Source of the DNA: Orobanche coerulescens | Lineage: Eukaryota; Streptophyta; Magnoliopsida; Lamiales; Orobanchaceae | Direction: 5' to 3' | DNA length: 64,000 nt | NCBI GenBank assembly: GCA_033398695.1 | Contig: CM065802.1 | Span: 81,268,096-81,332,095 of the forward strand | Shown here: piece after piece, positions 2,112 through 59,574 of the stretch | How the letters are laid out: each line of letters starts with the position of its first letter | Position numbering within the stretch: position 1 is the stretch's first letter | The notes under the pieces: model-generated | Told to the model about the DNA's origin: nothing | The model's input: only the letters and a program-made list of their open reading frames with translations | Databases searched by the model: none | Position numbers and translations under genes: made by a program

Positions 2112-3014
2112 TTTTTCTTCAACAAAATGACATACATCAATAAAAGACCATCAACAAATCAACATCAAGGTTCATAGGTTCATAGGATAATAACTAGTTA
2201 AGTTACCCACAGTTCACAATCACCATAACCAAAGAATAAAGATTAAGGGTGTGTGTGTATATATATATATATACTTATATAAAGAGTACGGTTAAATTGG
2301 TTAAGCCATAGTACCAGTCAGTCAAAAGGGGATACCATGCGCCATTAATCACTAGAAGCGGAGGCGGCGGCGGGAGGGTCGGGGATGGCGGCGTCAGCTT
2401 ATGGGGCAGCCGCGTCATGGTCAGGGGCGGCGCCGGCAGAATTTTCAGCAGCAGGGATTGGAGGGTCGGCTGCCAACGCAGCATTATTCCCGACGTCGCG
2501 AATCACATCGTCGATGAGATCAGCTGCCATCCCTCCTACTGTAATCAGACAGTGCCTGAACCAAATTTTCCCTAGCCAGCGCGACCTCATCAACAGGTTG
2601 ACGGAGTACAGCTGGAGGCGGCGGTGGTGGCGCCACCTATGAAGCGCTACCGGACGACTGGCTGGAGTGAACTGGAGAGCCGCCTGAAGAGGAATCGTCA
2701 GAGAAATGGGGTAAGGACGGCGTGGCCACTGTTTGGCCCAACTTCAACCTCAAGCCTAATTTTATTAATACCCCCTGGCCCGTCCTCTTCCCTCTGGGCC
2801 TTCAATTATTAAACACAATCTCACTATCAACACAGCCCACCCCGACACTCTCAAACCCACTAAATACCCTCAGCCCGCCAAGATTTTAACCCACCCTCCA
2901 AATTATAATTCCCAGCCTATTTCACCAGCCCATCACAATAATCCTGCTGAGCCCAATTATAATTCTCGGCCTGCTTCACCAGACCATCACAATAATCCTG
3001 CCGAACCCACCCTT

Positions 3015-3203
3015 ATGGCCAAATCTGGCCCAAATACAGAAGCCCAACCTCCCAATATTACCGAAACCAACTCCCAGCCAATTTTGCCTGAACCCCTACA
3101 TAAACCCATTAAACCTCAAACCCATTTAAATCCCATGATAGCCGATCAGCCCACAAGTTCTCAAGCCGGTAATCTCAACCCGACAAACCCGACCCGGGAT
3201 CCG
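3015..3203 (+). pseudogene. LINE ORF1 N-terminus, truncated
   Basis: A frame starting M-A-K-S-G-P-N matches the proline/asparagine-rich leader of the left ORF1 copy, including the Q-P-I-L-P-E-P and H-L-N-P-M-I-A-D-Q-P segments. It has no stop before 3203; the last codons of the open frame read into LTR sequence, so the protein is truncated before DUF4283. The ATG at 3015 is the first in this frame and is absent from the left copy, so the true start is uncertain. Confidence 0.5.
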
Positions 3204-3665
3204 AGCATAGCGTGCGCTACTTAGCGATACTGCCACTGCTGTGCTTGAGTCGCTAGCGCGCGCTACAAAAAAAACATAGCGTGCGCTACTTAGCGATACT
3301 AGCGTCCGCTATACAACAGAAATAGCGCGCGCTAGGCAATAGAATACCAAACGGCTCAAAACACCCGAAACACATGATACACGATCGAAACATCCAACAG
3401 AAGCTCACAACACGCATAACAACATAAGATGGATTTATGGAAACCCCGAAACGGCTGTTCCCAGTAACGATTACGAGAATCGGACCAAGTAGTGACGAAA
3501 AAGCTAATAAATGCGGAATTGAGTAAAACAAGTCCGAAACAAACTCGGATAGCAAAAAGTCCAGAAATAAGTATTCTCGAAATACCAATACGGTTACAAG
3601 CGAGCCTAAAAATGAGAAATACACTAAAATAAAAAATACGAGAAAAGAAAAATGCGGATATTACA
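3204..3665 (-). repeat. 3' LTR of element B, truncated
   Basis: Matches the inner end of the LTR at 8278-10454, clearly from about 3228, including the TAGCGYGCGCTA-type palindromes and the end GCGGATATTACA. About 1.7 kb of the LTR is missing. The first ~25 bp contain one more palindrome than the other copy and may be rearranged. Confidence 0.85.
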
Positions 3666-14345: not shown

Positions 14346-14364
14346 AAGTTTCGTCCCGAAACTT
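14346..14364 (-). other. Stop-codon palindrome, element E
   Basis: AAGTTTCG-TCC-CGAAACTT overlapping the pol TAA (14363-14365), then the purine tract next to the 3' LTR. Confidence 0.85.
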
Positions 14365-17300: not shown

Positions 17301-19063
17301 GCATAGCACCAAATTCCATGACATCCCTGCTTCAGTAATTTCACTGCTTTCATTGCTTTGATCAATTTTCCCGAGCTTCCCGGTCTCCATCCTCTGAATA
17401 AGTGTTCAGACTCATCATCATCAATGATAGAAATGATCCTCTTTCGGTAATTCAGAATAGCTCCATAACGGTTGAGCCAATCGTCTCCGAGAATTAAATC
17501 GTCACCATGGATGTCAATTACAATAAGATTCGATGGCCAATCTCTCCCTCCTATAGACACTGGAAAATCTCTAGTTTCTAGGGTTCCCACAATTTTCTCT
17601 CCGCTCGGTAATCCCACAACATAAGGTTCACAATCATACAAGCACGAGATCTTCAAACGATTAACACAGTTCAAAGATATAAAAGAATGTGTAGCTCCTG
17701 AATCGAATAAGACACTAACTGGTTGCGAAAGGATTTGAATCGTACCTGATGCAACAGCCGTGTTCTGATCGTCTGACTTCTTCATCTCATAAATATGCGG
17801 AGGAACGGACCCAGCGCTAGATGCTTCTCTTTTCCCAACATTCTGTTGCTGGAAACCACTTTGCTGCGTCTGGTTTACACTAGTGTCCTTCGGAACCGGT
17901 GCAGGAGTGCGAGTACCAAAAGATCGGATCGCATTTCCACAAAATGCTGCGCGATGCCCTTCCTGTCCACACTCGAAACAGGTCACAGTAGGTGCGAAAC
18001 AGTCACGTCAAACATGCCCCGCTTTGCCACAGTTATAACATTTCTTTCCTGCGTCTGAAACGGTTGGTGCTGCCCGGAACTTCTTTCCGCCTCGAGAAGG
18101 ATGCGAAGGCCTCTTGGATGAAGGAAAAGAGGACTGGCCCCTGCGAGGCCCACTATTCTTATTCTCCATGAAGTTGCCAGACACCTTCTGTTTCTTTGCT
18201 TCGGTTGACTTTTCTACTGCCGCCTCTTTCATATCATAGGCCAGTGCTTTGTCCTGATACTGTCGCAAGGTGGTACATTCAAATCCGGACATATATTGCT
18301 GAATCTACGGCTTCATCCGCATGTCAAAATGGAAAATCCTCTCCGCCTCGGTCCTGACCAAGTGGCGCACATAAGTCAACTGGTGATTAAAAGCCTTAAT
18401 CACGTCGGTCACAGATGCCTCTGAATTTTGTGGTGAGAAAAACTCCCGGACTCGTGCCTCTCTAACTGGGCGAGGACAATACTGCTCTTCCATCATTAAT
18501 TTGAACTCCGTCCAGTCAACATTATGCTCCTCAGGTCTAATGGCCTCCCACCAGTCGAAAGCCTCCCCCGTCAGAAGATACTGGCCGACCGGAACCTTTC
18601 TGTCATTGGGACAATTAATCCCCGCAAAGATCTTCTCTAACTCCTTTAGCCAATGATCCCAAGAAAGTGTCTCAGCAGAACCGTCAAATTTTGGAGAATG
18701 CAATTTGACCACCTCAGTAAGCCATTTGTCCCCCAGATTTTCCTCGTTATGCTGCTGTCCCATCACCGTCTGCATGTGATCAACAACCTGAGCAAACTGG
18801 TTTATCTGGGTAACCACCTGTTGAAGCACTTTCGGCACGTTAGGATCTGCATTATTATTTGCTGATCCCTGTTGTCCTCCGGAATGGGAATCCGTTCGAC
18901 TAGCGGTTATTTCTGGGGTAGACACCGAATCTTTCTGTCTCGCATTTCCACGTCCAAGGCCCACGATCAAGGCCCGCGTCCACGACCTCCCCTCAACATA
19001 GTGTAAACACAAATGCTCAATATCCAGGGCAATTTTTCTAAAAGAAAGTCCGTCAATATTCAC
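14363..19063 (-). pseudogene. Element E gag-pol polyprotein, one frame with four stops
   Basis: A single 1,567-codon frame, counted from 19063. Gag domain at codons ~120-250 (F-D-W-W-E-A-I; M-E-E-Q-Y-C-P-R-P). Zinc knuckles near codon 350-375 ([23 protein letters not shown]). Protease D-S-G-A-T-H-S-F near 450. [12 protein letters not shown] and [12 protein letters not shown] near 725-790. RNase H with F-T-D-H-K-S-L; integrase with [12 protein letters not shown] and D-G-Q-S-E-R-T; chromodomain ending E-A-T-W-E-T-E..R-Y-P-E-L-F. Stops at 18305, 18008 (within the first knuckle), 16667 and 16220. A likely original ATG at 18999 (M-L-R-G-G-R-G-R-G) is out of frame, so the gag start is also damaged. 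Catalytic motifs are otherwise intact. Confidence 0.93.
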
Positions 19064-25813: not shown

Positions 25814-28604
25814 TTATATGGCCTCATCGGGGGTCAGCAAGCATGTTAGTTTGTCATGTGTCGCAACCTTTCTGCATCGGTGACACAACGACATCTTCCT
25901 CTTTGAGAACTCTCCATAAGAGGCGATTCTCTTCTTCTTAAGGCGTCCAGTTGGGCGGTTCAGAATTGGCGGGAAAATCTTGGACATATTTGATTCATCG
26001 GGCTGAAACTCAAACCTCTCTGTCTCGGGCACACCTTGAATGTCAAAGCTATAGCACTCCCGATAGCTAGATGCATGGAAGCACTCCTCAACAAGGCTAT
26101 ATACTGAATTGCATTTCTTCTGCATTACAGCCACCGCATGGGCACATGGGAACCCCATCACTTGCCATTGATGACATGAGCAAGTTCTTTTGGTTAAATC
26201 AACCTCAACAGAAATCCTAGATAATACTTCAAATTTACCACTTGACAGCTCGATAACTGGCCACGAAAGAGATATGGCTGTAAGCTGGTGCCACAACGTT
26301 TCCTTGATAGGGCATAGTGCACCGGTCCACTCCTTGCTCTCTTGCCTTCTATCAACATGCCAAGTAGTACTGCCAAATAATATGAATCTAAATTAATGAT
26401 CAGAATATAGAAAAAACACCAGCCCCACCCCAACACCACATGCACTTGTTGAACTGAATTAAAAAAGAAAAAGAACCATGACTCTTGTGTAATTATATAG
26501 AAACAGTCACTTGATCGTATATGATCTATCATGGATGTAATGGGGAGTGCTCTAGCCTCTTTAATCCACCTGTTGAACTGCTCCTCTGCGTTAGACGTCA
26601 TTTCGCCGTATCTTTTAATGTGCCTGGAGTGGGCCACTATCCATTTATCGAATGGGATCTGTGAAGTCCATTCTTCAGCAGCCTTGCCGCCCTCCCTCTT
26701 GAATATATCGAGCTTCTCGTTGAAAATGAGAATATTAGGAGCATATGCACAATTTTTGAAATGGACTCCCATGTTCTCCCTTTGAATGTTGGTCCACCCA
26801 CTCGTCAATTTCCCCCTGAGATTTCCTAGTAGATGAACATACAGAAAAAATGCATTGGTTTCACAAATACGCTCGGGAAAGCCGACATCAGCCCTGTGTT
26901 TCTGTCTGAAATGTAGCATATCTCCTTCTCATATTGAGCGAAGTCTCTTAACTTTTCCAGAAACCATACCCAGTTACTTGTGTTTTCTGCTGATACAATG
27001 GCAATTGCAACCAGGAACAGACCTTGGATACAAAAAAAATACATTCATCCTCTTAAAAAAAATACTTGCCTCATTTGTTTTGTGTATCAAAACCATATAA
27101 ATATATGTGCGACACATGGCTTAACTAACAATATAAAAAAAGGAAAAAGACATAAAGAAAAAAGAACACAACAGCAATACCATCATTTTCGTCCTTTGCA
27201 GTAGCCGTGAGTAGAGTTCCCTTTGCACAACCAATCATAAAAGTCCCGTCTATGAACAGCATTGGACGATATTTCTTAAAACCATCTAGACAAGCCTTGA
27301 AAGAAATGAAAATACGTTCGAAATGGTTTGTGTTCTTGTTTGCCTCCAACGACACGACGCTGCCTGAATACATGTCATAAAAACAAAAAGACAGCAGACA
27401 CACTCGCGAAAAACACAAACAACAATGTGTAAAAAAAGGGGTGAAGCTACCTAATCCACAAAACAAATAAACATAATGTTATGCTATGAAACAAACCTGG
27501 GTTTGTATGTTGGGCTGCATCACAATACCACCTAAGTTGGTCATATGACTCTTCGAAGCTCCCGAAAATCTTATCCACAGTGGATTCGCTTGTCCTCCAA
27601 GCTTTCCAGTACGATATGTGAATGTCGTAGCTATTTTTCAATGTGTTCATTATATCCTTACCAGATGTGCTTGAGTCTGACCTCACGTCTTCGATAACCA
27701 GGTTACTGATAATCTTTGGATTCATGCGCTTATTTACATGACCAGCTAAATTGCCAATGCACTTGTGTACTAAACAAGCTTTGGAAATGACAAAATAGTT
27801 TGTCACAGATTGTAACTTGGCTTTGACAAACCAGTCACAACCACAATTGACAACTTCATTACACACAACGTGAATATATCTCCCATCTTTACTTAAATAT
27901 TTAAACCTAAAGCCAAGGCGTGTGGAATACTTTATGAGTTCAGACCTACACTCACCAGCACCCCCCTGAAAATTGTACCTACGCCCCCATCTATTATATG
28001 TGCCCAATCATCTGATAATAGAGGTTTTTTGTTTGTGATGGGGCAAATATCATATGATGGTATACTGCCTTCCCCCCTAATTTTATACTTTCACACGCTT
28101 AAAAGGGATTTTGTTTGAAGAAGTTCTTTGAATTTTGGGCCCACCCTTATTCTCCTTTTTCCATTTTGAAATTGAAACACTATCAAAATCCAAATCCATC
28201 CCACAACCTATTGTATCATCAGAACCAACATGTTTATGCACATTTGTATGAACATGTTCATGCACGTGTGCATGAACATGACTTGGATCATTGCTACCGT
28301 CAACATCCATATCAGAACCCTGAACATTTACATGTGTAATCTCAACTGTAACAATTTTTTCTGACAACAACTCACACACTGCTACTAAAACTTTCATATC
28401 AGCATCCAAATCTAACATGCAATTAATACTACCGACCGAAAAACGGAATGACATAGTAACATTTTTTAAATCGGGCCACTTACTAGTTACCTGAGAAATC
28501 ATGTCACTAAATGACAAGGATGAATTCACAGAAATCAAATTTCCGACACTGTCCCACTGGATGTTGATAAAAACATCTCCTTCTTCTTCCAAATTGACAA
28601 TCAT
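25814..28604 (-). pseudogene. Mutator-like (MULE) transposase, spliced, one frameshift
   Basis: Exon 1 from ATG 28604 has a PB1-like N-terminus and a His-Val repeat. Exon 2 (about 28007-27497) carries the MuDR-type DNA-binding region (C-R-S-E-L-I-K-Y; H-V-V-C-N-E-V-V-N-C-G-C-D-W). The transposase core follows in exons 27364-27181 (L-F-I-D-G-T-F) and 27022-26511 (I-S-D-R-N-T-G-L); D-G-T-F and S-D-R hold the first two catalytic Asp. Splice sites CAG/GTTTGT, CAG/GC, G/GTATTG and AAG/GT fit well. The last exon has a SWIM zinc finger, C-S-C-H-Q-W-Q-V-M-G-F-P-C-A-H-A. Near 26835 the H-L-L-G-N-L-R-G-K block is one base out of frame, so this copy is probably inactive or contains a sequencing error. 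Confidence 0.82.
28194..28295 (-). repeat. His-Val repeat within transposase exon 1
   Basis: Codes for a run of H-V-H-x units (H-V-H-A-H-V-H-E-H-V-H-T-N-V-H-K-H-V). At DNA level it is a string of CATGT/CATGA units. Possible metal-binding or simply slippage-derived. Confidence 0.7.
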
Positions 28605-41116: not shown

Positions 41117-41956
41117 TCAGAACCTCTTGAACCTCTGTAGGTCCGCTTCGCAATCATGGACCTTCTTTGCTTCCTTCAGGGTTCTGTTCCTTCTTTCGGA
41201 ACACCATTCTGTGGGCGTCTGGCTGCCGGAGAGCTCATGCTGGATCCCATTCTGATCGCTGAAATCAGTTATCGCCTTGTTGAGAAACTCTCCTCCTCTA
41301 TCTGATCTGATCTTGATTATGGAGAGGGATTTCTCATTCTGGATCCTTCTCAGCAGCTCAGGTAACTTGGTCAAGGTTTCACTTTTCTTGTATAGAAAAA
41401 TGATCCAAGTGTACCTTGAATAATCATCCACAATCACAAGGGCATGCTTTCTGCCGCTCAAAGTCCTTGGCTTGATAGGACCAAATAGATCCATGTGGAG
41501 TAGATCTAAGATCCTTGTTGTGAGTGTTGTAGGCTGCACTGGCTTGAACGACGCCTTAGTCTGCTTTCCCTTCTGACATGCATCACAGAGTGCTTCCTTC
41601 TTGAATGCTTCATTTGGAAGTCCTCTGACCAGCTTCTGAGAGCTAATCTTGTTGATGGCTTTGAAGTTCAGGTGACATAGTCTTTTGTGCCACAGCCAAC
41701 CATTCTTAGCTACAGTCTTGGATAGAAAACAGGAGTTAGGTGTTCCTGTGTTCCAATCAATCATGTATACATCTCTTCTTCGGAAACCTTGTAGCTTTAT
41801 TTCTCCAGATAAGATGTCTATTACCATACACTTCAAGATGGTGAAGACTACTAGATTCTTCTCATCGCAGAACTGGCTTATGCTCAGGAGGTTGTATTTG
41901 AGACCTTTGACATAATGAACTTTGGATATTACAATGTTTCCTCGGTGCGGCTCCAA
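41117..41956 (-). pseudogene. Copia integrase
   Basis: 279-codon frame. The zinc-binding part shows W-H-K-R-L-C-H-L-N and C-D-A-C-Q-K-G-K. The core shows L-H-M-D-L-F-G-P, then R-S-D-R-G-G-E-F, then a damaged N-G-V segment before S-E-R-R-N-R-T-L. These cover the D, D and E positions. The frame ends shortly after, again by frameshift. Confidence 0.87.
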
Positions 41957-42144
41957 AGCCTTTTGTCCTGTCCTCTAGAGCTATCTCCAAAGGTTACATC
42001 GGGACCTCTTTCTTTGATATATTTGGTCAGCATCTTCTTGTTCCCGGTCATGTGCCTTGAGCATCCAGAGTCTACAAACCACTCTTCACCTCCAAAATTT
42101 GCGCTTGAGGAGATGTGGTTGTAGTCCTTCCACCTCTTCTGCAA
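41929..42144 (-). pseudogene. Copia aspartic protease fragment
   Basis: W-F-V-D-S-G-C-S-R-H-M-T-G-N, the active site of copia proteases, then V-T-F-G-D. It joins the integrase frame after a shift near 41940. The upstream 42145-42500 is a Pro/Arg/Asn-rich linker. Confidence 0.85.
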
Positions 42145-43047
42145 TTAAACAAGCAGAGATTTAGGTACCCAAATTTGTGTGGGTCCTTTGGGGTTAGTGG
42201 GTTTCCTGGAGAATTGATTTCTCCTTGCATTATAAGAATTATTATTATAACCCTTAAAAGGTGCCTGTGGTCGAGGTCTAAATCTCCTGGTTGGATTGTA
42301 TACCGGATATTCCTCAAAATAGTGTGGGCCATTTCTAAATCTAGGCTGAGACCATTTGTTAAACCTTTGTGGTCTCCACACTTGTTCGTTTTGGTAATTT
42401 GGATAACCTTGAGGTTTCCATCTGCCCCTCCCATTATGAAATCTATTTTTAGGGAGTTGTTGGTAATAGTGGGCATGTTGTCTGCTTTTGCCGCTTTGCC
42501 ATCGCTAGTCGCTGTCTAGGTGTCATGCAGTGTAACTCGATTGCAGCTTCAGACGTTTGACTTTGTCACTGCTTTTGAAAATCGGTTTATGCAGCTCGTG
42601 ATCGAGACCATTGTTTCTCCTTGATGAAAGTGGTTTTAGAACTAGAGGGAGTGTGGGGATCATATCCAAGGCCCGATCTGAATATAGTGGCCTCTTGTTA
42701 GTACACAATTCGTCCGGGGTTAACGACGCTTTCGGGGAGGTTATTTCCTGCTTTGAGTTTTATTTATTCGTGCCTTAGTAAACTCGGCTTTGGCATGAGC
42801 AAGTGCGGTGACTTTTCTTTAAGTAAAATATTTAGCCGGTCTATCTCAAGTATTGGCACTTGCTCAGTTTTTAAAATCACCGTATTTGTCTCGGTCTTAT
42901 TTAAATCTAGATGAGTTTTTCAAAATCATTTTTCACCGCCTATTCTCATCTTGCGTCTTCTCTCATTGACATGACTTGATGTGCAGATTTAAGTGTTTCA
43001 AAATCTTTGAATAATTGATTTACCGATTCATGTAAATCCATATATTG

Positions 43048-44098
43048 CTACATGGCTGAGCTATTATCCGACCCGGTAGGTTTAGAGGTTACCTCTTCAT
43101 CAGCCAAGATTGCCATCGTGCAATCATATTCCTCGTCGTCATCGTAAAAGAAGCCGCCGCTTGATTCGACATGCTCCTGGTCTTCTCCGATGAGAGCTTT
43201 TCTTCTGTCTTCCTTTCTGGCCACCTCCTTTTTGGTTTCATCCTTCTTGAGCTCGGGACAATCCATTTGGATGTGTCCTATCTTGTGGCAGTTGTAACAT
43301 TCAACTTTCCAGCTTCCAGCTTTCTGGTTTCTTCTGGGATTCTCCTTGTAGTTTTTCTTATACTTGGAGTAGTTTTTCCTGAAGTTACTGAATCTTTGCA
43401 TGATGAAAGCCATTTCCTCCTCAAAGTCTAGCGGATTTGGAGGTTTCACATCGGACATGCTCTTAGCAGGGGACTCGGCTGCAAATGCGATTCCCTTCTC
43501 TGCAGGCTCAGTCGAGGATGAACTCGGAAGTTCGAACTCGTAAGCCTTCAGATCAGAGAATAGCTCCTGAATCTTTATCTTATTCAGGTCTTTGGACTCT
43601 CTCATAGCTACAGCCTTCATGCTCCATTCTGGATTTAGAGATCTGAGGACCTTGAGTGCCATTTCCCTGTTGCCATAAGTCTTGCCCAGGGAGTTGATTT
43701 CATTGATAATCTCAGTGAACCTTGTGTCCACTTGGTCTATTGATTCTCCATTTTTCATTTTAAAGTTGTCAAACTTTTGGATAGCTATTGACAACTTGTT
43801 CTCCTTGATCAGCTCCGTTCCTTCACACATTAGAGCTAATGTGTCCCATATCTCTTTGGCATTCTTACAATTTTTGATCTTGACCATTGTGGATTTGTCA
43901 AGAGTTTGGTACAGACATCTCCGGCCCTGTTGTCAAGATTGGCCACTTTCTCTCTTCGGGGTCACCGGTTCTCTTCTTAGGAATTTTTCGGCCTCCCAGT
44001 GCGATTTCCTCGGGCGTGTTGTCCTTCTCGAAAATGAATGGACCATCTTCAATGATGCACCACATGTCGTCATGGATTGAAGATAAATGTGCCTGCAT
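43048..44098 (-). pseudogene. Copia gag (UBN2-type), one frameshift
   Basis: N-terminal piece 44098-43898 (M-Q-A-H-L-S-S-I-H-D-D-M-W). The main frame 43887-43048 has the UBN2 gag domain (A-K-E-I-W-D-T-L; I-D-Q-V-D-T-R-F; L-R-S-L-N-P-E-W), a single zinc knuckle C-Y-N-C-H-K-I-G-H-I-Q-M-D-C and an acidic C-terminus. The two pieces differ by one frame. Confidence 0.87.
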
Positions 44099-45626: not shown

Positions 45627-46422
45627 AGATCAACTTTAGGGAGCTTCAGTATTTTCCAAGATCAATTTAAGGTGCGGGTATCATCAGTTGCGAATTCGAG
45701 AGTCGGATATCGCGAGGACGGCGTTTCGAACACGCTATGGACATTACGAGTTTGTGGTGATGCCGTTTGGATTAACTAATGCACCTGCTGTATTCATGGA
45801 GTTGATGAACCGAGTTTTCATCGACTATTTAGACCGGTTTCTGGTTATTTTCATAGACGACATTTTGATTTATTCTCGTGACCGAGAGGAGCACGAATTT
45901 CACCTTCATCAGATTCTCGGCGTGTTAAGACGAGAGCAACTCTATGGAAAGTTCTCCAAATGTGAGTTCTGGATGTCCGAACTGATGTTTCTCGGACATG
46001 TGATTTCATCAGACGGAGTACATGTCGATCCTCAGAAGACGGAGGCTATCCGAGATTGGCAACCTCCGAAGAATGTTAAGGAAATCCGAAGCATTCTCGG
46101 ATTAGCTGGTTATTATCGACGATTTGTGGAAGGATTTTCTAAAATCGCTCAACCTATGACGAACCTTTTGCGGAAGGATAAGAAATACACGTGGTCTGAT
46201 GCGTGTCAACAGAGTTTTGAGGAACTCAAGAGTCGGTTAATTTCAGCACCTGTCCTTTCCTTGCCACAAGGGACGGAAGGATTTGTTGTTTATAGTGACG
46301 CATCCGGACACGGTCTCGGATGTGTACTGATACAGAATTGGAAAGTGATTGCTTATGCCTCGCGACAACTGAGGCCTTATGAGATCAATTATCCGACCCA
46401 CGACCTGGAGCTAGTGGCCATG

Positions 46423-46427
46423 GTATT
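46423..46427. repeat. Target-site duplication GTATT (left), LOG-carrying element
   Basis: GTATT before TGATAAGTGTCAG; repeated at 52949-52953. Removing one copy and the insert restores the reading M-V-F-A-L-K-I-W in element A RNase H. Confidence 0.97.
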
Positions 46428-46816
46428 TGATAAGTGTCAGTTTTATACACTTATCTATGGTTTGTATCAATAAATATCACCCATAATTGAGCAAGTCTAC
46501 TCGTTTTTTGCTTTTAATTAATTAGTTTTTAATAATTTTATTTTTATCGGATGATGATGTAAATCTAGTCTTAATCGGATTGAATAACTGATTTACTCAA
46601 GAAATAACATGTTTATAAAATATTCTATTTGTTGAATTTTAATATATTCATGTTGTAGGGCTTTCCGAGACGAATTCGGCAGTCTTTCCGGATTCAAAAT
46701 CAGAGTTATATATCAAAAGTTATCATCCGAAGAAGATTTGGGGCAAAAACTCAAAGTCTGAGAAATTCTGGGCTGAAAACGTAACTCTCAAAGCAACCAG
46801 TGAGCAAATTGACGAA

Positions 46817-46905
46817 GCCAAGTTACGGCCGTAACTACTGAATGTTACGGCCATAAGCCGTCCAAGTTACGGCCGTAACTACTGAATGTTACGACCGTAA
46901 CTCTT
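46817..46905. repeat. GTTACGGCCGTAAC palindrome array
   Basis: Five palindromic or half-palindromic units in ~90 bp: GTTACGGCCGTAAC twice, plus variants with one changed base, spaced by TACTGAAT and GCCGTCCAA. The 3' LTR copy (51741-51830) has changes at different units, so each LTR retains intact ones. Confidence 0.92.
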
Positions 46906-47030
46906 GACAGATTGTGATCATTTGTCTAATTTTTTTTATACTTTTTGTGTATTATTGAGGGCATGGCTGGCATTGATCCGATCTATTGTAATAATGCTGG
47001 AGTTTTGGAGCTATTAGATGACTTTAAGTG

Positions 47031-47038
47031 TATAAATA
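47031..47038 (+). promoter_or_regulatory. TATA box, 5' LTR of LOG-carrying element
   Basis: TATAAATA, ~125 bp downstream of the palindrome array and ~600 bp into the LTR; conserved at 51948-51955 in the 3' LTR. Confidence 0.65.
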
Positions 47039-48020
47039 GACCCCTTAGATCCTTCATCATTCATCATTCATCTTATAATTTTTCCACTTTTTGTGTGAAG
47101 AACACACTTGTGTTCTTGAGTGATTTGTGTAAGTGTGGTATAGCATATGTTGTTCAGAGAGTTTATTGCTTCTTTCTCCTTTATCTACTAAGGGAGTGAG
47201 GATCAATTCTTTCTCTTGTTCAACTAATAATGACCACTCAAGCTTCTATTATGTATATTAAACCCTTCATGGGCTAAGTTACCTTTAATTGGGATTATAA
47301 ACAAGGTTAGTCATGTTATTTAAGTTTGTATAAAGATCTATTGTGAAGTACTTATTATTGTGTGTGATTTTCATTGTTTTAACAATCTTTATTTATTTGG
47401 CCAATAAATGACGATATTTATGGTCTTCATATGTTTCGAAAGAAAATATGTTTGATTAGATCAAATGATCTTCACTCTAAGTTGTTCTAGGGGATAGAAA
47501 TATACCTCTAGACCTTAAATGATTCTTTGAGTTATTTTCATAAATCCTAATGCTATGTATTGAAGCCAATCAACATAGAAATATAGTGGATTGATTCAAT
47601 ATATAAGGGGCGTTTTATAGTTCGAAAGAGAAACCGTCTTTTTAAGGAAAATCGAATCTACACAATATAATAAGTAAATTCATCTTATGATCTCCTATAC
47701 ATCTTCTATAAGTAATGACGAACTAAGTTTGTAATCCCAACTATTCCATTTTATCGTTAATCAATCTATTATTGTTGCAATCTTTTTATTTCCTTAAAAT
47801 ATTAGAACTATTATTGTATTTTCTTTGCAATTATTAAACCAAACTCTTTAATTGTGTGTTTCACTCATCTTAGTATCTCTAAAAATATACTAATAATGTA
47901 TAATTCAAATTATAACCAAACTTCCTCGTAGGATCGATAAACCGGACTCAAAAAGTCCACTTACTACTTGATACGATATCATGCAGTTGCGATAGTTACA
48001 CTAAGAACGTGTCAAGTTTT

Positions 48021-48038
48021 TGGCGCCGTTTCCGGGGA
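48021..48038 (+). promoter_or_regulatory. Primer binding site of LOG-carrying element
   Basis: TGGCGCCGTTTCCGGGGA, six bases after the LTR end, differing by one base from the TGGCGCCGTTGCCGGGGA site usual in Athila/Tat-type gypsy elements. Confidence 0.85.
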
Positions 48039-48243
48039 AGTATAAGTGTTATTTTTGAAATCTTACATTGTAAACTATTTTTATAGATACAATTTCTTGA
48101 CGTTGTAACTTAGTACTCAATTGTGTTTGTCCGGTCAAGTGGCGGATAACGGTACTCCGTGACTATTAAAGCCGGATTTTTCAGTTTCCCACAACAACTG
48201 ATATTTGTAGATATTCTATCCTCTTTTCATTTTTTTTTTGGTC

Positions 48244-48723
48244 ATGGATGAAACTTTGAATAAAATCGAAAAAAGATTTCCCTTTCTGATCAAAAATGTC
48301 ATTTTAAAGATTTATAAGATGAGACTTGAAAGGATGAGGTTGCTTATGAATAAAAGCATACCTTTTGACATAAGATTCATTATTGAAGCCAAAGTAAGAA
48401 TAGAAGGTGAATTCACAGAAACACCGATTAGATTTTTACCAGGGCTAGGAAAAAGTTCATATGCCAAGAAACGACGAGCAAAGATGATAGCCGTTTGCTA
48501 TAAATGTGCTAGATGGAACTGTAATTTAAAATGTCGATCTTTAGGAATTCCATCTACAAATAGAGAAGATAAAATTCAATTCATTAAGGATGGTCTGAAT
48601 AAAGAGAATCTAGATAATATCGAAATTTCTCTTGACACGCATCCTAGTGGACTCGTACATTACGGAATTCGATGTTTGTGGAATAAATTCAAACCAGAAT
48701 ATGAACGACGTCTTGGAATCTGA
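48244..48723 (+). CDS. 160-aa basic cysteine-rich protein, carlavirus NABP-like
   Basis: Intact ORF from the ATG at 48244, the first ATG after the primer site in this frame. Residues ~1-65 are Lys/Arg/Ile-rich and partly helical. Residues ~68-82 (L-P-G-L-G-K-S-S-Y-A-K-K-R-R-A) are strongly basic and are followed by C-Y-K-C, then C-N-L-K-C, then a conserved-looking F-I-K-D-G-L. A basic stretch directly before a Cys cluster, followed by F-I-x-x-G, is the layout of the cysteine-rich nucleic-acid-binding proteins of carlaviruses (some act as silencing suppressors). The expected His/Cys spacing is not exact. It is not a standard gag zinc knuckle (no C-x2-C-x4-H-x4-C). The family link is inference; alternatives are a diverged gag remnant or an unknown plant protein. 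Confidence 0.55.
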   Translation: MDETLNKIEKRFPFLIKNVILKIYKMRLERMRLLMNKSIPFDIRFIIEAKVRIEGEFTETPIRFLPGLGKSSYAKKRRAKMIAVCYKCARWNCNLKCRSLGIPSTNREDKIQFIKDGLNKENLDNIEISLDTHPSGLVHYGIRCLWNKFKPEYERRLGI

Positions 48724-49099
48724 CTTTAAAAGACCCTGTTTGCCAATTTGTAAGAAAATTAGATGGGAAGCTTCTCCCCGACTCATAGAAGGCGTTTAGG
48801 CCGTTTACAAACGTAAAATCAGAGGAAGATGTGAGCCACAATCACAACTACTGTACATACGCGTAAGTATCTTTTATTTTTGTCGTATGGTGAGATTTTC
48901 TGAATAAAAAAAATGTGATACGTGATAAATGCATTCATTATTCTATTGAGTAGTTGAAGCGCAATCAACGCAATCACAAACTTGTTAAATAATTTTTACC
49001 TTCTTTTTCTTCTACAAATAAACATTGTGCTTGTTTCTTTTATTCATCCCTCAAACTTGTACTTTTCTCTGTTTCTCTCTAAATAATTTCTTTTCTAAA
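48724..49099. other. Inter-ORF region, possible LOG leader or promoter
   Basis: AT-rich. A strong splice-donor-like GTAAGTAT is at 48863-48870. The last ~90 bp before the LOG ATG are pyrimidine-rich, like a plant 5' untranslated region. This could be the leader carried along when the LOG transcript was captured; no certain TATA box. Confidence 0.4.
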
Positions 49100-49724
49100 A
49101 TGGAGTCATCATCTTCATCAAAAAAATTTAGCACAGTCTGCATTTTTGGTGGAGCTAGTTATGGAAATGAGGTTTACTAAAGCAGCCCACAACTTGGGTC
49201 GTACCTTAGGAGAAAAATGCATTCATGTAGTTTACGGAGGAGGAAGTCTAGGATTAATGGGATGCGCTGCTGCTTCTGCCTATATGGAAGGAGTAAGAGT
49301 GTTGGGAATAATTCCAAAACCTCTGGCTGAAAGTAAAATCACCGGGTCAACTATTGGAGATGAGTTTAGATCTGTAAATATGCAAGATCGCATAACTCAC
49401 ATGATAAATAATTCTGGCACCTTTATCACCCTTCCCGGTGGTTTTGGCACTCTTGAGGAATTTTTTCATGTGGTTATCAGAGCCCAGCTAAATGTTCATC
49501 AAAGATCAATAGGTCTGCTTAATGTCAATGGTTTCTTTGATGGTTTACTATCTTTCATCGACTACTCTGCTGAAAAGGGATTTATTTCCGAGCGTGCTAA
49601 ACGAATCATAGTCGTTGCAATAACACCAGATGAACTAATCAAAAAACTCAATGAATTTGTTCCTCAACCAGATCCAGCTCTAGCTAAAATTGTCTGGATG
49701 GAAGATTTTACCGTGAGAAAATGA
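49100..49724 (+). CDS. LOG: LOG-like cytokinin riboside 5'-monophosphate phosphoribohydrolase, one frameshift
   Basis: LOG enzymes release active cytokinin bases from their riboside monophosphates. The ATG at 49100 codes for a Ser-rich start and S-T-V-C-I-F-G-G-A-S-Y-G-N, the first strand and nucleotide loop, and meets a TAA at 49178. The rest is open one frame over to 49724: K-A-A-H-N-L-G, V-V-Y-G-G-G-S-L-G-L-M-G, V-L-G-I-I-P-K-P-L, M-Q-D-R-I-T-H-M, L-P-G-G-F-G-T-L-E-E-F-F, G-L-L-N-V-N-G-F-F and F-I-D. The P-G-G-x-G-T-x-x-E motif with its Glu, and the conserved Arg, are present; the Lys after that Arg is Ile. Total length fits the family (~210). Plant LOG genes normally have several introns; this has none. 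A single-base indel near 49165-49178 makes it a probable pseudogene, unless the base is an error or translation starts at 49161. Confidence 0.85.
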
Positions 49725-50227
49725 AAAGTGGATTCATTCCTCTACCTTTGATAACCCATGTCGGACCTCTTGTATTTTTACTTTCTGTCGTGTGTAATAA
49801 TCGTGCTAAATGGTGGCAGCTTAAGGAGTTTCTTCTTGATCTCTTGACGCGCATCTATTCGCGATTTATGTATTGTTATTTTATTACTGTAATTTTTATT
49901 ATATTTTTTTTATAAAAGCATTGATGGCAACGTAAGGCGACTCTTCGGACTTTCTTGATGCGCATCTTAAAAATTGTGTTATACTTCCGAGTATATTTTA
50001 TTTTGTTTTGTTGTGTGCCTCGTATATTTATTCTCTTACAGATTCTAAAAAGGCGTTAACTCAAGCATCAACTTTCTTAACAGGGGGTATTCTGCTTTTC
50101 TGCATTGCTTTTTATTTTATTTTTTTAAAAAACTGAGGACAGTTTTATTTTCAAGTTTGGGGGTGGTATGTTTTGATGTGTTAGTATTTTGGTGTGTTTT
50201 GATTATTTTGCGTATTTGCCTTAATTT

Positions 50228-50265
<38 letters not shown>

Positions 50266-50570
50266 TTTTGATTTATGAGATTTCTAGATCTGGCCATAAC
50301 ACCAATAAATTAGCTATATACAAGCTTCTAAAATCGTTTTAACCGGTAAAAAAATTGTATATTCCAAAATTTTTGAGCCTTAATCTCTCTTTCCAAGCCT
50401 TGTAGTTATCATATAAAATCGAGTCATTCGTTACCTTGAGAAAAGAAGAATCAGTCGGTTGATGAAAAATAGAACTGAAATTTACTTAATTTGTGGAGTT
50501 TTTGATTTTTCATGCTTAAACTAAGAAATGATTTTCTGCAAAAATTCTATTCCCTAAAAAAAGGAGTCAT
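49725..50570. other. AT-rich 3' region of LOG-carrying element
   Basis: No credible gene. An ORF at 49721-49915 overlaps the LOG stop and is hydrophobic but unrecognised. A short imperfect direct repeat (TGGCAGCTTAAGGAGTTTCTTC..GCGCATC, 49813-49856 and 49926-49970) follows LOG. A (TA)n run lies at 50234-50265. CAAGTTTGGGGGTGG at 50152-50166 resembles a second purine tract. Confidence 0.5.
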
Positions 50571-50870
50571 TGGTGAAAATAGCTACACGTTAGCAAATAA
50601 CGGTGTGAAAGCTATCACCTAAAAAAAATGACGAAAAGGAGAAGTGTTAAGCAGCAACAGCTGCCTAATTTTGGGGGTCTTAAATTTTGCGAAAAATAAA
50701 GGACTAACCATTGTTGGTGCGTAGTTGCCGTCTCACAGAAAAATTGGTGAAAAGAGCTACACGTTAGCAAATAACGGTGTGAAAGCTATCACCTTTTAAA
50801 AAAAAGAGATAGAAATTGTGTTGGTGAAAAGAGCTACATGCTAGCAAATAACGCTGTGAAAGCTATCACT
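50571..50870. repeat. Three-copy 50-bp stem-forming repeat
   Basis: Copies at 50571-50620, 50744-50793 and 50821-50870, each beginning TGGTGAAAA and ending GCTATCAC. Within a copy, GGTGA..TAGCT can pair with AGCTATCACC, with the constant ACGTTAGCAAATAACGGTGTGA-type segment as loop (minor changes). The ends are the best conserved parts. Confidence 0.85.
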
Positions 50871-51331
50871 AAAAGGGATTTAGTTTATGAGCAGATTTGA
50901 ATTAATTAGCGGCTGAATTTCAATACACTCAATTTCGTGAAAAATCACAATATTTGATGACGCCAATGAAATTCTTCTTCATATTGAGTCGAAAAATAAA
51001 CGAGTGATCGAGTGCAACCATTAAAGGGAGTCGTGTGTATCACGAGTGGGAAATAAATAATCAGCCTTTTGGGGGGAAAACCTTGAATTTGGAATTACAA
51101 AATAAAAACCATGTTTTAACTTCAAAATCATTAGTAGATTTATTTTGAATCATGATTCATTTATATCTACTGTATAAAGCTGGTTGTTGTGTATTAATGG
51201 CATTTTGATCTCCTTTTCTCTTTTTATATAATTTTTTTTATGTGTGTCTTAATTTTCTTATTTTTGTCTTATTTTTATTTTTATTTTTGGAGCGTGAATA
51301 ATAAAGAATCTTGCTCGGGACTAGCAAGAAT

Positions 51332-51346
51332 TCAAGTTTGGGGGTA
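51332..51346 (+). promoter_or_regulatory. Polypurine tract, LOG-carrying element
   Basis: CAAGTTTGGGGGTA directly before the 3' LTR. Confidence 0.8.
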
Positions 51347-52948
51347 TGATAAGTGTCAGTTTTATACACTTATCCATGGTTTGTATCAATAAATATCACC
51401 CATAATTGAGCGAGTCTACTCGTTTTTTGCTTTAAATTAATTAGTTTTTAATAATTTTATTTTTATCTGATGATGATGTAAATCTAGTCTTAATCGGATT
51501 GAATAACTGATTTACTCAAGAAATAACATGTTTATAAAATATTCTCTTTGTTGAATTTTAATATATTCATGTTTTAGGGCTTTCCGATACGAATTCGGCA
51601 GTCTTTCCGGATTCAAAATCAGAGTTATATATCAAAAGTTATCATCCGAAGAAGATTTGGGGCAAAAACGCAAAGTCTGAGAAATTCTGGGCTGAAAATG
51701 TAACTCTCAAAGAAACCAGTGAGCAAATTGACGAAGCCAAGTTACGGCCGTAACTACTGAATGTTACGGCCGTAAGCCGTCCAAGTTACAGCCGTAACTA
51801 CTGAATGTTACGGCCGTAACTCTTGACAGATTGTGATTATTTGTCTAATTTTTTATACTTTTTGTGTATTATTGAGGGGATGACTGGCATTGATCCGATC
51901 TATTGTAATAATGCTGGAGTTTTGGAGCTATTAGATGACTTTAGGTGTATAAATAGACCTTTTAGATCCTTCATCATTCATCATTCATCTTATAATTTTT
52001 CCACTTTTTGTAATACTTTTTTTTTTGTGTGAAGAACACACTTGTGTTCTTGAGTGATTTGTGTAAGTGTGGTATAGCATATGTTGTTTAGAGAGTTTAT
52101 TGCTTCTTTCTCCTTTATCTACTAAGGGAGTGAGGATCAATTCTTTCTCTTGTTCAACTAATAATGACCACTCAAGCTTCTATTATGTATATTAAACCCT
52201 TCATGGGCTAAGTTACCTTTAGTTGGGATTATAAACAAGGTTAGTCATGTTATTTAAGTTTGTATAAAGATCTATTGTGAATTACTTATTATTGTGTGTG
52301 ATTTTCATTATTTTAACAATCTATATTTATTTGGCCAATAAATGATGATATTTATGGTCTTCATATGTTTCGAAAGAAAATATGTTTGATTAGATCAAAT
52401 GATCTTCACTCTAAGTTGTTCTAGGGGATAGAAATATACCTCTAGACCTTAGATGATTCTTTGAGTTATTTTCATAAATCCTAATGCTATGTATTGAAGC
52501 CAATCAACATAGAAATATAGTGGATTGATTCAATATATAAGGGGCGTTTTATAGTTCGAAAGAGAAACCGTCTTTTTAAGGAAAATCGAATCTACACAAC
52601 ATAATAAGTAAATTCATCTTATGATATCCTATACATCTTCTATAAATATTGACGAACTAAGTTTGTAATCCCAACTATTCCATTTTATCGTTAATCAATC
52701 TATTATTGTTGCAGTCTTTTTATTTCCTTAAAGTATTAGAACTATTATTGCATTTTCTTTGCAATTATTAAACCAAACTCTTTAATTGTGTGTTTCACTC
52801 ATCTTAGTATCTATAAAAATAGACTAATAGTGTATAATTCAAATTATAACCAAACTTCCTCGTGGGATCGATAAACCGGACTCAAAAAGTCCACTTACTA
52901 CTTGATACGATATCGTGCACTTGCGATAGTTACACTAAGAACGTGTCA
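51347..52948 (+). repeat. 3' LTR of LOG-carrying element
   Basis: 1,602 bp, partner of 46428-48014, with a few small indels and scattered substitutions, many at CpG. Confidence 0.95.
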
Positions 52949-52953
52949 GTATT
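52949..52953. repeat. Target-site duplication GTATT (right), LOG-carrying element
   Basis: Partner of 46423-46427. Confidence 0.97.
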
Positions 52954-54327
52954 TGCATTGAAGATTTGGCGTCATTATCTTTATGGCGTCACCTGTCAGA
53001 TTTTCACTGATCATAAGAGCTTGAAGTATATATTTACTCAGAAGGAGTTAAATATGTGTCAGAGATGGTGGGTAGAACTGATTAAGGACTATGATATCGA
53101 GATACAGTATCACCCGAGTAAGGCGAATGTTGTCGCCGATGCCTTGAGCCGTAAGTCCGTTCAGGAGCAGATGCTTGCTCGCTTAACCATTCAGAAGGAA
53201 CTTCAGCAGGAATTCCTAAGGCATGAGATTGAGGTTTGGTTACAGCGTGTTCAAGGACAGTTATGTATGCTGGAGATTTCATCGCCACTTGAAGAGCCGA
53301 TCAGAGTGAATCAGGGTTCAGACCCATTTCTATTGCGCATTCGGGATGATGTGACCCAGTGGAAAGCCCCTGGATTTGTGGTCCACGAGGATGGACTTTT
53401 GCGATTTAAGAACCAGTTATGTGTTCCGACAGATGACGAGTTGAAAAACTCGATTTTGAGAGAGGCCCATGCTACCCCTTATTCTATTCATCCGGGGTCT
53501 AGCAAGATGTACAAAGACTTGAAACAAAATTACTGGTGGAGTAATATGAAGCGAGAAGTCGCAGAGTTTGTTTCGAGATGTCTCACCTACCAACAAGTAA
53601 AGATAGAACATCAGCGACCGGCGGGCATTCTCAAACCACTTCCTATCCCAGAGTGGAAGTGGGAGGATATTTCAATGGATTTCATCACGAGTTTGCCGGC
53701 GAGTCGGCGGGCCATAAATATAATTTGGGTGATTGTGGACCGTTTAACTAAGTCATCTCATTTCCTTGAGATTAAGGATACGTGGGGTCCCGAGAGACTT
53801 GCCCAGTTGTTCATCAAAAAGATAGTGAGATTGCACGGTACTACTAAGAGTATCGTTTCTGATCGTGACGGGCGATTCGTGTCACATTTTTGGAAATCAG
53901 TTCATCGTGCCATGGGAAATCAGCTCAACTTCAGCATGGCTTTTCACCCTCTGTCTGACGGACAATCAGAAAGAACTATTCAGACGTTGGAGGACATGTT
54001 GAGGGCATGCGTCCTCGATTGGAAAGATGATTGGAAAGCCCAACTACCGTTGATCGAATTCACGTATAATAACAGTTGGCATGCTTCGATTCAGATGGAA
54101 CCTTACGAGGCCTTATACGGTCGTCGTTGTCGATCTCCCCTATGCTAGGATGACTTATCAGAATTAATCGGTACTGAGCCCGATATGCTTATAGCCGCCC
54201 GCGAGAAGGTAGCTTTGATAAGGAGTCATTTGTTGACGGCTTAGAGTCGACAAAAATCATATGCAGATAACCGTCGTCGACCCTTGGAGTTCGAGACAGG
54301 CGATCACTTTTTGGTCAAGGTATCCCC
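52949..54327 (+). pseudogene. Element A RNase H and integrase
   Basis: Resumes with [11 protein letters not shown]. RNase H continues to [15 protein letters not shown]. The integrase zinc region reads R-C-L-T-Y-Q-Q, where relatives have C-L-T-C-Q-Q, so one zinc ligand is lost. The core has S-M-D-F-I-T, S-D-R-D-G-R-F and D-G-Q-S-E-R-T. A TAG at 54146-54148 replaces the Trp of S-P-L-C-W. The sequence is cut at K-V-S-P by the LTR of element C. Confidence 0.92.
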
Positions 54328-56686: not shown

Positions 56687-57642
56687 TCAAGACGAAAACA
56701 ACTCGGGATATCTAGACTTCATATCAGCTTCCGTTTCCCAGGTGGCTTCTTCCATTCCGTGACGTGACCACTGAACTTTGACCAAAACGATTGACTTGTT
56801 CCTCAGTTGCTTAACTCGACTCTCGAGTATCTTGACTGGTCTTTCTTCAAACGTCCCATCCTGCTCGACTTCGATCTCGCCGAAATCAATGATATGATTG
56901 GGATCTAGTATATACCTCCGTAACTGGGATACGTGGAACACGTTATGAACATGGCACAATGACGGCGGCAATGCTAATCTGTATGCCAACTCCCCAACTC
57001 TCTCGAGGATCTCAAATGGTCCGATATATCTCGGACTCAGCTTTCCTTTCCTTCCGAAACGAAAGATTCCCCGAGTAGGAGAAACCTTCAAAAGTACGTG
57101 ATCTCCAGTACTGAACTCCAATGGGCGGCGGCGTACGTCCGCATAGGATTTCTGGCGACTCTGGGCAGTCAACAGCCTCTCACGAATTAAGGCTATCTTC
57201 TCTCGAGTCTGCTCGATCAACTCTGGTTCTGTTCCGATCAAGTCCGATGAATCGTCCCAGCATAGGGGCGATCTGCATCTCCTTCCGTATAATGCCTCAA
57301 ACGGTGCCATCTTAATAGAAGCATGCCAACTATTGTTGTAGGTAAATTCAATCAACGGTAGATGAACTTCCCAATCGTTTGACCAATCTAAGGCACAGGC
57401 CCTTAGCATGTCTTCCACCGTTTGTATAGTTCTCTCAGATTGTCCGTCAGTCTGCGGGTGATAAGCTGTACTGAAGTTCAATTCGGTCCCCAAGGCCTTA
57501 TGAACTGCTTTCCAAAAGTGAGACACAAAATGGCCGTCTCGATCAGAAACAATGGTCTTCGGCGTACCATGCAATCGAACTATCTCCGAAATAAAGACTC
57601 GTGCCAACCTCTCTAGTCCCCACGTATCCTTAATACCTAGAA
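56687..57642 (-). pseudogene. Element C integrase C-terminal half and chromodomain
   Basis: A clean frame from the insertion point: [28 protein letters not shown], the G-P-F-E-I-L-E-R-V integrase tail, and the chromodomain ([26 protein letters not shown]). The stop TGA overlaps the palindrome at 56671-56687. No internal stops, so element C may have been intact when element D hit it. Confidence 0.92.
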
Positions 57643-59574
57643 TGTAACACCCCCAATCCACTCAGGGATATTACACGCCGTAGACCCTCTCCTCGAGGAT
57701 CTACCAGGCTGGTAACAACATTTAACATCTCGACAATGCCTTCAAGGCAAAAATGACTCAGTAGACCGATTTGGTCTTTCAATAAATACATACAACTCGA
57801 ATACAACTCATGCCCACGCAGGGGTCAAAATACAACCACACCCGTGCAACGGGAAAAATATAGCAGCGGAAAATAAAGTACAACTATACCAATACGACAT
57901 CAACGGGTCCTCGTGTGATTAGTATCGTTCATCTTTCATCATCCTTCATGCCGAACCTGTGCTCTGCTCCAAAACCTGAATGCAATACAGACATCCACCC
58001 CCCGAATACTCGGGGGTTAGCAAAACTCCACTGTTTTGCTAGTGCAAATACAAAGTGCAAATACGAGCCATATAATTCAAGTTCCACGAATAACAATAAC
58101 TAGGAAATCCTCAAAGATTCAAACGTAACGAAAAGTACTTCCCGAGGCATGAGTTTGGGTAAAACACTCCAAAACCGATAGATCATAAATCAAGGGAAAT
58201 AATTTATAAAACCGTTTAAAATGCCATCGAGAGTTTTAATAGAAAACCATTTTAGGATTATCGAATCCTTCTCTTTCCAAAAATCAACAGGGTCACAGCC
58301 CAAAGGTTTTGTTTTCGCAAATAGAAAACCAACAACAATTCACAGGGCCAGAGCCCAACATCACGTGTCCTCGGCGGACATAAAAATCAACACAACGTAA
58401 TCACGCACGCGCATCGCCTAGGACCGGGACGAAGCCACAAATCCCACTCGAGGCCTCGAAGGACCCTCCCGAGCTGGCTAGCGAAACAAATCACACACAT
58501 CTCACGGTTGGATCAATCGCTTGTTGCATCCTGACCACATGATCGCATGCCATGTGCCACCGTAGATTATCTCAGGCTCTCACGGTTGGATCAATCACTT
58601 GTTGCATCCTGACCACATGATCACGTGCCATGTGTCACCGTAGACCTTCAACCATATCCACACATTCACACAAATAACATATCACATCAAGGATATTCAA
58701 ATAATTCGCCAGGCATCAAACACTTAGCAAAACACCACGTCAATCCACAACACACCGAAATGAAATAATATACGTTCACACACAATGCCAAGTGCAACAT
58801 TAACACCAAGCATATACATAGAATTCGCGTAGTTATTCACAGATCACGCCATTCACAAAACACACGCGTTTTGAAAGCAAGCCTTTAACAAGGCTAATCG
58901 AATCTTTTGAAAACTCATTTCAAACAATCAAACAAACATATAAATACGATCACCAATTATCATATCCATAAAACAAGAATTATATGGACAAGGTACTTGC
59001 CTCGAAATCGGCACGCAAGTATTCCGACGAACACGGCTCAACCGGAAAGCTTCGAAACGCCCGATGTTAACGAAAAGGAAGATAACAACGAACGGAAGGG
59101 TTCAACACGGTTTCTTCGCAAGAAACTCGACCCTAACATCATATAATCCATAAATCAACAATCATACGAGGAAGGATAATCGTAGAACGCCCGACAACCC
59201 CTCTAAGACATTTCTAGGACACCTTCAAGGCGTCGGTCAAGAACTCGACCCAAATAACGAATCGATACGATCCAACCATGGAATAACAAGGGAAATGATA
59301 TAATACATCTAAATAATCATCAATCCATCAAAATCCTAAGTTACATCGGATTAATCGGACGAAAACAACCAAAACCCCCAAATTCCCCAAAACTAGATTT
59401 CTAGGAAATCTGACCTGATTCGCTCGATCAAAGGATGTTATAGGACGGATGATTGACGATATGAACCTCCAAACATCATGGATTCATTGTCCAACAACAT
59501 CTCTAGAAGATTCACACACCCACATGAAGAGAAGTGGAAGAAGGAGAAAATGGCGAGAAAACGGGCGCTGGGCC

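Follow-up and report, generated by a model that had tools for sequence, protein, structure and literature searches.

An LTR retrotransposon of Orobanche coerulescens with an NABP–LOG gene cassette in place of gag-pol

Long terminal repeat (LTR) retrotransposons with a LOG-domain gene are not without precedent. Steinbauerova 2011 reportedly described two Athila-like elements with similarity to LOGL4. That study is cited in a screen of 121 angiosperm genomes that found a YgdH domain in the LTR consensuses of two Citrus species and, with a filter off, of Populus trichocarpa (PMC9289625). The screen used reverse transcriptase (RT) as its marker, so elements devoid of gag-pol would be missed (PMC9289625). 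Here we describe an LTR retrotransposon at positions 46428–52948 of a 64,000-nucleotide stretch of the Orobanche coerulescens genome (the window; assembly GCA_033398695.1, contig CM065802.1, 81,268,096–81,332,095), which carries an intronless LOG-like gene (retro-LOG) and, upstream of it, a gene resembling carlavirus nucleic-acid-binding proteins (NABP). Both genes are shorter than the 250 codons from which extra open reading frames (ORFs) were counted in an earlier survey (PMC6317226); a review of such ORFs names maize Bs1 among gene-transducing LTR elements (PMC7264820). A sequence-only reading of the window, whose limits for the element we keep, knew of no described LTR family with LOG cargo, a point that the Citrus and Populus consensuses correct. 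A search of open-access literature, a coverage outside which most subscription papers lie, turned up no report that pairs NABP and LOG within a retrotransposon, and the Orobanche genome paper does not use the terms LOG, cytokinin, retrotransposon or LTR in its main text (PMC13192451).

The element and its two genes

The window element is a non-autonomous LTR retrotransposon whose interior holds an intronless LOG-like gene instead of gag-pol. Two LTRs, a target-site duplication (TSD), a primer-binding site (PBS) and a polypurine tract (PPT) are all present, gag-pol is absent from the interior, and joining the flanks without the element and with one TSD yields a single Ty3/gypsy RNase H frame, that is, the empty site reads through. 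The element is thus real, as the sequence-only reading had it from the LTR pair, GTATT duplication, restored frame, PBS and PPT. Its placing of an intronless LOG-like gene where gag-pol would be is borne out as well: the main open frame (49146–49721) matched PF03641 (E = 1.9e-31), TIGR00730 (E = 2.2e-39) and Arabidopsis LOG (PDB 2a33; E = 3.7e-46), and no retroelement domain was found in 10 scanned frames out of 43 overlapping interior frames of at least 35 aa, nor in NABP or LOG. One weak DUF423 match was obtained among the 10 frames. The two LTRs differ at 39 of 1585 compared columns (Kimura two-parameter distance 0.025, in an alignment whose 5′ piece overran the LTR by 4 bases), which would correspond to ~1–2 million years at two plant substitution rates that we assume. 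The features are listed below.

46423–46427, unstranded: 5′ TSD GTATT, the same 5 bp on both outer flanks
46428–48014, plus strand: 5′ LTR, 1587 bp, with a TATA box at 47031
48021–48038, plus strand: PBS TGGCGCCGTTTCCGGGGA, tRNA-Asp type with one mismatch, typed against what we take to be the tRNA-Asp 3′ end
48099–50080, plus strand: NABP–LOG cassette, the part absent from two gag-pol elements with the same LTRs
48244–48788, plus strand: NABP-like gene (carlavirus nucleic-acid-binding-protein-like zinc finger), 3′ end approximate, frame broken near the C-terminus
49101–49748, plus strand: LOG-like gene (retro-LOG), main open frame 49146–49721, broken near the N-terminus, stop near codon 210
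50153–50164, plus strand: internal PPT-like AAGTTTGGGGGT; the two gag-pol partners have AAGTTTGGGGG at the same place
50569–50879, plus strand: ~60-bp repeat in three copies, in the 3′ region
51334–51345, plus strand: PPT AAGTTTGGGGGT
51347–52948, plus strand: 3′ LTR, 1602 bp
52949–52953, unstranded: 3′ TSD GTATT, matching the 5′ TSD

The structure model of retro-LOG (pLDDT 80) has 2a33 as its best structural match, and the predicted Rossmann-type fold and the PGGxGTxxE motif place the protein in the LOG family. The upstream gene (48244 to ~48788), which the sequence-only reading overlooked while naming the LOG cargo correctly, matched the carlavirus profiles PF01623 (E = 5.9e-06) and PF05515 (E = 5.5e-05), as did 33/33 and 32/33, respectively, of the aligned NABP members at E ≤ 0.01. 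The profile matches mainly cover the middle of the ~180-aa protein, and NABP is encoded not by a carlavirus but by LTR elements of the Orobanche genome. Three matches from a profile search of NABP against the PDB (E = 0.26–0.64) were judged to be chance, and scans of viral contigs with both proteins found no relatives of either. Between the two genes lies GTAAGTAT, a good-looking 5′ splice site (~48863–48870).

The insertion target is a Ty3/gypsy RT–RNase H–integrase unit at 45688–46427 and 52954–54148, and frames resembling this interrupted unit, judged by eye, also lie at 14363–18000 and 56687–57661. Minus-strand frames at 25814–28604 have, by eye, a zinc-finger pattern that we take to be that of Mutator-like (MULE-type) transposases; those at 41117–43887, likewise read by eye, presumably resemble Ty1/copia gag and integrase.

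The cassette on two backbones and in other plants

We searched the assembly of 3,646,015,169 bases with a 601-base LTR piece, which gave 1960 candidates; 40 were scored, all 94–100% identical and the window included, and 20 loci were picked from these by LTR similarity. NABP and LOG occur in the window order at 11 of the 20 (L013, L015, L017, L019, L020, L021, L022, L023, L025, L027 and L032), LOG without NABP at one (L030) and neither gene at eight (L014, L016, L018, L024, L026, L028, L029 and L031). Since 11 loci agree in gene order and one of them, L021, is a complete insertion with a different TSD (GCCGG) and LOG at the same place as in the window element, the claim that LOG is cargo of this element stands. 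L016 is an internally deleted element (TSD ACGAG) and L014 and L026 are solo LTRs (TSDs CCACA and CCTAC); at L024 and L031, seen on one side only, the 3′ region begins exactly at the limit common to the gag-pol partners described next. A PF03641 search of the genome gave 9760 first-look candidates, with 150/150 of those scored matching, and an NABP search gave 10,759, with all 150 scored matching at 93–100% identity. Among the matches listed, LOG comes after NABP in at least two places, at distances of 1018 and 1021 bases compared with 1013 in the window.

Two gag-pol elements share the ends of the window element: L018/L033 (12,256 bp) and L028/L034 (11,906 bp, up to the stop of its 3′ LTR match). 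Identity to the window element is ~94–95% in the LTR, 85–89% in the leader and 90% in the 3′ region; interior positions 1–80 and 2063–3327 are common and 81–2062 are not. Both partners contain gag (PF03732), RVT_1 and RNase H, with a weak protease match in L018, rve (integrase) in L034 and a Transposase_32 ORF that passes its cut-off in L033 and falls short of it in L034. In its LTRs, in the initial ~80 bp of its leader and in its 3′ region, the window element is therefore a member of a gag-pol family of ~12 kb present in this genome. The RT–RNase H–integrase order of Ty3/gypsy elements is seen in L028/L034 (L018/L033 has gag, RT and RNase H), and a partner with this order and a matching LTR assigns the window element to Ty3/gypsy. 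Within it, the PBS and PPT, the Transposase_32 type of 3′ ORF and motifs that we take to be characteristic point to a probable Athila-type lineage. The internal PPT, considered as a mark of the cassette junction, was dropped since the gag-pol partners have one too.

The cassette also has a second setting. Twelve further loci were picked from the PF03641 list, a choice biased to intact LOG; one (L039) is of the window's family and the other 11 have only the cassette in common with the window element (interior 85/92–2067), at ~86% DNA identity in 10 of them, L043 aligning in pieces. The flanks of the 10 aligned loci resemble one another, and on a single strand of L047 the series RT, RNase H and integrase is followed by NABP and then by LOG. 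The RNase H of L047 and that of L028 are 63% identical, so the two backbones are related but distinct. The cassette hence replaces gag, pol and the 3′ ORF in the window element and, elsewhere in the genome, comes immediately after integrase in a different group of pol-bearing elements. Its presence on gag-pol-less and pol-bearing backbones indicates that the window element is a recombinant, not a fresh capture; the proposal that this element itself had captured a spliced host LOG transcript becomes improbable with a cassette common to a pol-bearing group of the same genome.

A third group (L001–L008; G000 C1, C2, C4, C7, C8, C11 and C12) comprises the best PF03641 matches and has a diverged NABP, a LOG about half identical and an antisense RNase H nearby. 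Its LOG frames have no stops in the counted codons and its NABP is decaying. L008 repeats the NABP–LOG unit at ~2.46 kb, and several PF03641 matches cluster at C11:152.47–153.0 Mb.

Relatives extend to other plants. A LOG protein search gave 2897 matches, the best 120 of which are 92 Orobanche rows followed by Rehmannia, Paulownia and others; some Orobanche rows stand for large clusters (P0017, 328; P0001, 244; P0016, 62 member sequences). A profile search from distant LOG members (7998 candidates scored, 7981 matches) added Reevesia, Diplodiscus, Populus, Xanthoceras and Melia among its best 120, and the best 120 of 240 NABP matches include Orobanche, Xanthoceras, Acer and Populus. Signs of linkage between the two genes also come from outside this genome: gene model P0208 has NABP and LOG domains, both by Pfam, and P0051 has LOG and NABP, the latter by eye at a place without a Pfam match; adjacent locus tags of Orobanche minor (OROMI_020768/020769 and OROMI_009435/009434) are NABP/LOG neighbours; and NABP and LOG protein distances over linked pairs correlate (r = 0.76, p = 0.0002 for 10 pairs including the window; r = 0.64, p = 0.0098 for 7 pairs). 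Five NABP/LOG pairs on equally long contigs of at least 1200 bases (ENA 4 versus a shifted mean of 0.53, maximum 3; JGI 1 versus 0.017; a third source 0) serve as support only, sizes below 1200 having been dropped and the ENA shift control having reached 3 against 4 observed. A short stretch of Xanthoceras P0243 matches the gag-pol region of L028 (E = 3e-5).

Automatic gene models fuse retrotransposon frames, as NABP with LOG in P0208 and P0051 and as LOG with LOG in P0241–P0243. Two Populus models named LOGL10, P0297 (P. trichocarpa) and P0330 (P. nigra), fall inside the retro-LOG clade with a changed pocket and an LxLxL tail, and thus seem to be genes of retrotransposons that annotation has assigned to the host.

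Pocket and tail of retro-LOG

For CgLOG, Arg99 and Glu122 are proposed to be catalytic, Met96, Lys100 and Glu121 bind adenine, and Met96, His97, Lys100, Glu125 and Trp129 bind the prenyl group; AtLOG3 has the same residues (PMC4979012). We counted these positions in 213 listed relatives (217 minus four Xanthoceras fusions, P0241–P0243 and P0284, that keep Lys100 and Glu125; partial proteins included). Of these, 189 retain Arg99, 201 retain Glu122 and 180 retain both, as does the window copy; Lys100 is kept in only 2, Glu125 in 1 and Trp129 in 119. Arg occupies the Trp129 place in 82 relatives, all of them from Orobanche (82 of 92 rows), and the window retro-LOG reads I, H and R at the places of Lys100, Glu125 and Trp129, which is not the cytokinin-specific pocket. 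The residues of PGGxGTxxE are mostly kept among the relatives. In a FastTree tree, the Xanthoceras rows and P0329, which keep Lys100 and Glu125, adjoin the rest (supports 0.59 and 0.84), a placement that suggests that the pocket change followed the capture of LOG. As the tree (213 of 222 sequences) includes only two canonical plant LOGs and has these supports for its two basal splits, it gives no firm answer on which LOG subfamily retro-LOG came from or on the sequence of events.

The second change is at the C-terminus. Of the 120 full-length relatives from outside Orobanche, 106 have within their final nine residues an LxLxL sequence, which is among the forms that the EAR repression motif takes (PMC6479872). 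Elsewhere in the 120 proteins it occurs 3 times in 24,287 positions, and the tail varies less than the linker before it.

Competing explanations and comparison with known systems

We consider a non-autonomous Athila-type Ty3/gypsy recombinant with an NABP–LOG cassette to be, overall, the probable explanation of the window element; we hold its structural part with high confidence and offer its functional part tentatively. Recombination or template switching would have carried the cassette from one backbone to another, and the gag-pol partners would provide in trans the proteins that package and reverse-transcribe the LTR-driven RNA of the element. In function, the cassette might be a host-handling accessory module. 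NABP could bind nucleic acid and, by analogy with related viral cysteine-rich proteins, one of which, from a mandarivirus, reportedly suppresses silencing (PMC12172455), may blunt silencing; the LOG-like enzyme may cleave or bind a nucleotide through its changed pocket. The mostly kept catalytic pair, the changed pocket and the basic LxLxL tail of most listed relatives outside Orobanche make it more likely that the enzyme acts on some nucleotide that is not a cytokinin ribotide, or on one in addition to cytokinin ribotides. Selection was gauged by Nei–Gojobori counts with a codon bootstrap, in which pairwise values mix pre- and post-insertion time and are not independent: the ratio of nonsynonymous to synonymous substitution rates (dN/dS) is 0.27 (0.18–0.39; 66/66 pairs <1) for NABP in 12 copies of the window's family, and at the PF03641-picked loci 0.41 (0.29–0.58) for LOG (12) and 0.38 (0.25–0.57) for NABP (11).

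Several findings weigh against this explanation. On the structural side, each gag-pol element was read in two pieces, the TSD matches at 4/5 positions in the C7 gag-pol element and is unreadable in the C2 one, where the match to the 3′ LTR stops short, and the Athila label was drawn from PBS and PPT, ORF type and motifs. The L047 piece between integrase core and NABP has no Pfam match; we take it to be the integrase C-terminus from its place and a motif. The AlphaFold2 model of NABP is poor (pLDDT 56), too poor for a structure search. Both frames of the window copy are broken, NABP near its C-terminus and LOG near its N-terminus and by an early stop near codon 210, which the sequence-only reading had not recorded; other genomic copies and relatives with open NABP and LOG frames exist. 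In the window's family, LOG has a dN/dS of 0.65 (0.50–0.87; 68/78 pairs <1; 13 copies including the window), not far from drift, with in-frame stops in 11/13 copies, five of these sharing one position; in the third group (8 copies) NABP is drifting at 0.80 (0.60–1.10) and LOG is at 0.53 (0.30–1.02). The pocket change is not absolute, Lys standing at the Lys100 place in L039 and L046 of the 12 PF03641-picked loci and in P0323 and P0329. The LxLxL tail is found in 0/55 full-length Orobanche proteins, is absent at the four third-group loci read and changes 11 times on the tree. The element, its cassette and its partners are known here from sequence. On the counts, LOG has been under constraint over time but is fading in the window's family, where NABP is better kept, and the third group shows the reverse, with LOG better kept than NABP; the drift of NABP and the upper bound of 1.02 for LOG there imply that the two genes are not always kept together.

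Retro-LOG as a true cytokinin-activating cargo, which would supply active cytokinin wherever the LTR is expressed and steer the cells concerned to divide or take on meristem identity, and so to enter the germ line, is unlikely. The LOG fold, the catalytic pair in 180 of the 213 relatives, the largely intact PGGxGTxxE and a LOG dN/dS below 1 are all in its favour, but the adenine- and prenyl-binding Lys100 and Glu125 (PMC4979012) are nearly always replaced and Trp129 has become Arg in most Orobanche rows. Cytokinin activation, as the sequence-only reading had it, is accordingly doubtful on these residues: it may occur, and is no longer the default.

A passenger gene, picked up once as a LOG transcript and carried without use while its copies decay, is improbable too. 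It would account for the stops in 11/13 LOG copies, the ratio of 0.65 and the repeated gain or loss of the tail, but not for the occurrence, in several eudicot families, of full-length LOG-like proteins whose motifs are conserved, two sets with dN/dS intervals below 1, the recurring NABP partner and gene order, or a pocket change common to nearly all listed relatives. We give equally little weight to a nuclear regulator whose basic LxLxL tail would recruit TOPLESS-type co-repressors, with the enzyme fold as a ligand-binding scaffold: the concentration of LxLxL at the C-terminus, the low variability of the tail and the existence of EAR-bearing microbial effectors that bind TOPLESS (PMC7446885 and PMC8126959) speak for it, and its absence from the Orobanche copies, the mostly kept catalytic pair and the possibility that a short motif persists by descent or for other reasons speak against it. 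A LOG gene in host DNA between two unrelated solo LTRs is ruled out by the matching 5-bp outer TSD, the restored RNase H frame and the same inner arrangement at 11/20 LTR-picked loci, and nothing was found in its favour.

Beyond the recombinant element itself, it is possible, if speculative, that an LTR lineage in several eudicot families carries a selected host-handling cassette, comprising NABP and a LOG-derived enzyme of new nucleotide specificity, often with a co-repressor-recruiting tail, that is exchanged whole among backbones, both autonomous and non-autonomous. If so, retrotransposons would trade accessory genes much as viruses do, and a plant RNA-virus protein and a retrotransposon protein would share ancestry. 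The locus makes concrete, in a form open to testing, how a lineage of plant retrotransposons can keep host- and virus-like accessory genes and exchange them as a cassette. Some annotated 'LOG' genes (Populus LOGL10; Orobanche clusters of up to 328 members) look like retrotransposon genes and could distort counts of the cytokinin gene family.

As far as we found, the NABP pairing, the cassette on two backbones, the pocket, the tail and the scale are new. The Athila-like elements reported with LOGL4 similarity and the YgdH-bearing Citrus and Populus elements are alike in having a LOG-domain gene in a Ty3/gypsy LTR element, downstream of pol in the pol-bearing group here. The present case differs from these elements in its additional gag-pol-less form, its NABP partner (unmentioned in the available part of PMC9289625), its pocket and tail changes and its high copy number. 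LOG phosphoribohydrolases (At2g37210 LOG3 and At5g11950 LOG8) share the fold, PGGxGTxxE and the catalytic Arg and Glu with retro-LOG, which is instead intronless, mobile and of high copy number, with Lys100 and Glu125 replaced in nearly all listed relatives and a basic/LxLxL tail in most of those outside Orobanche. Carlavirus nucleic-acid-binding, cysteine-rich proteins (PF01623 and PF05515) have a basic stretch and a cysteine-rich region in common with NABP, whereas NABP is a ~180-aa protein matched mainly in its middle and encoded in plant LTR elements. Maize Bs1 is likewise an LTR element with host-derived gene sequence (PMC7264820), yet the cargo here is a two-gene cassette that is common to a pol-bearing group and has relatives in other plants.

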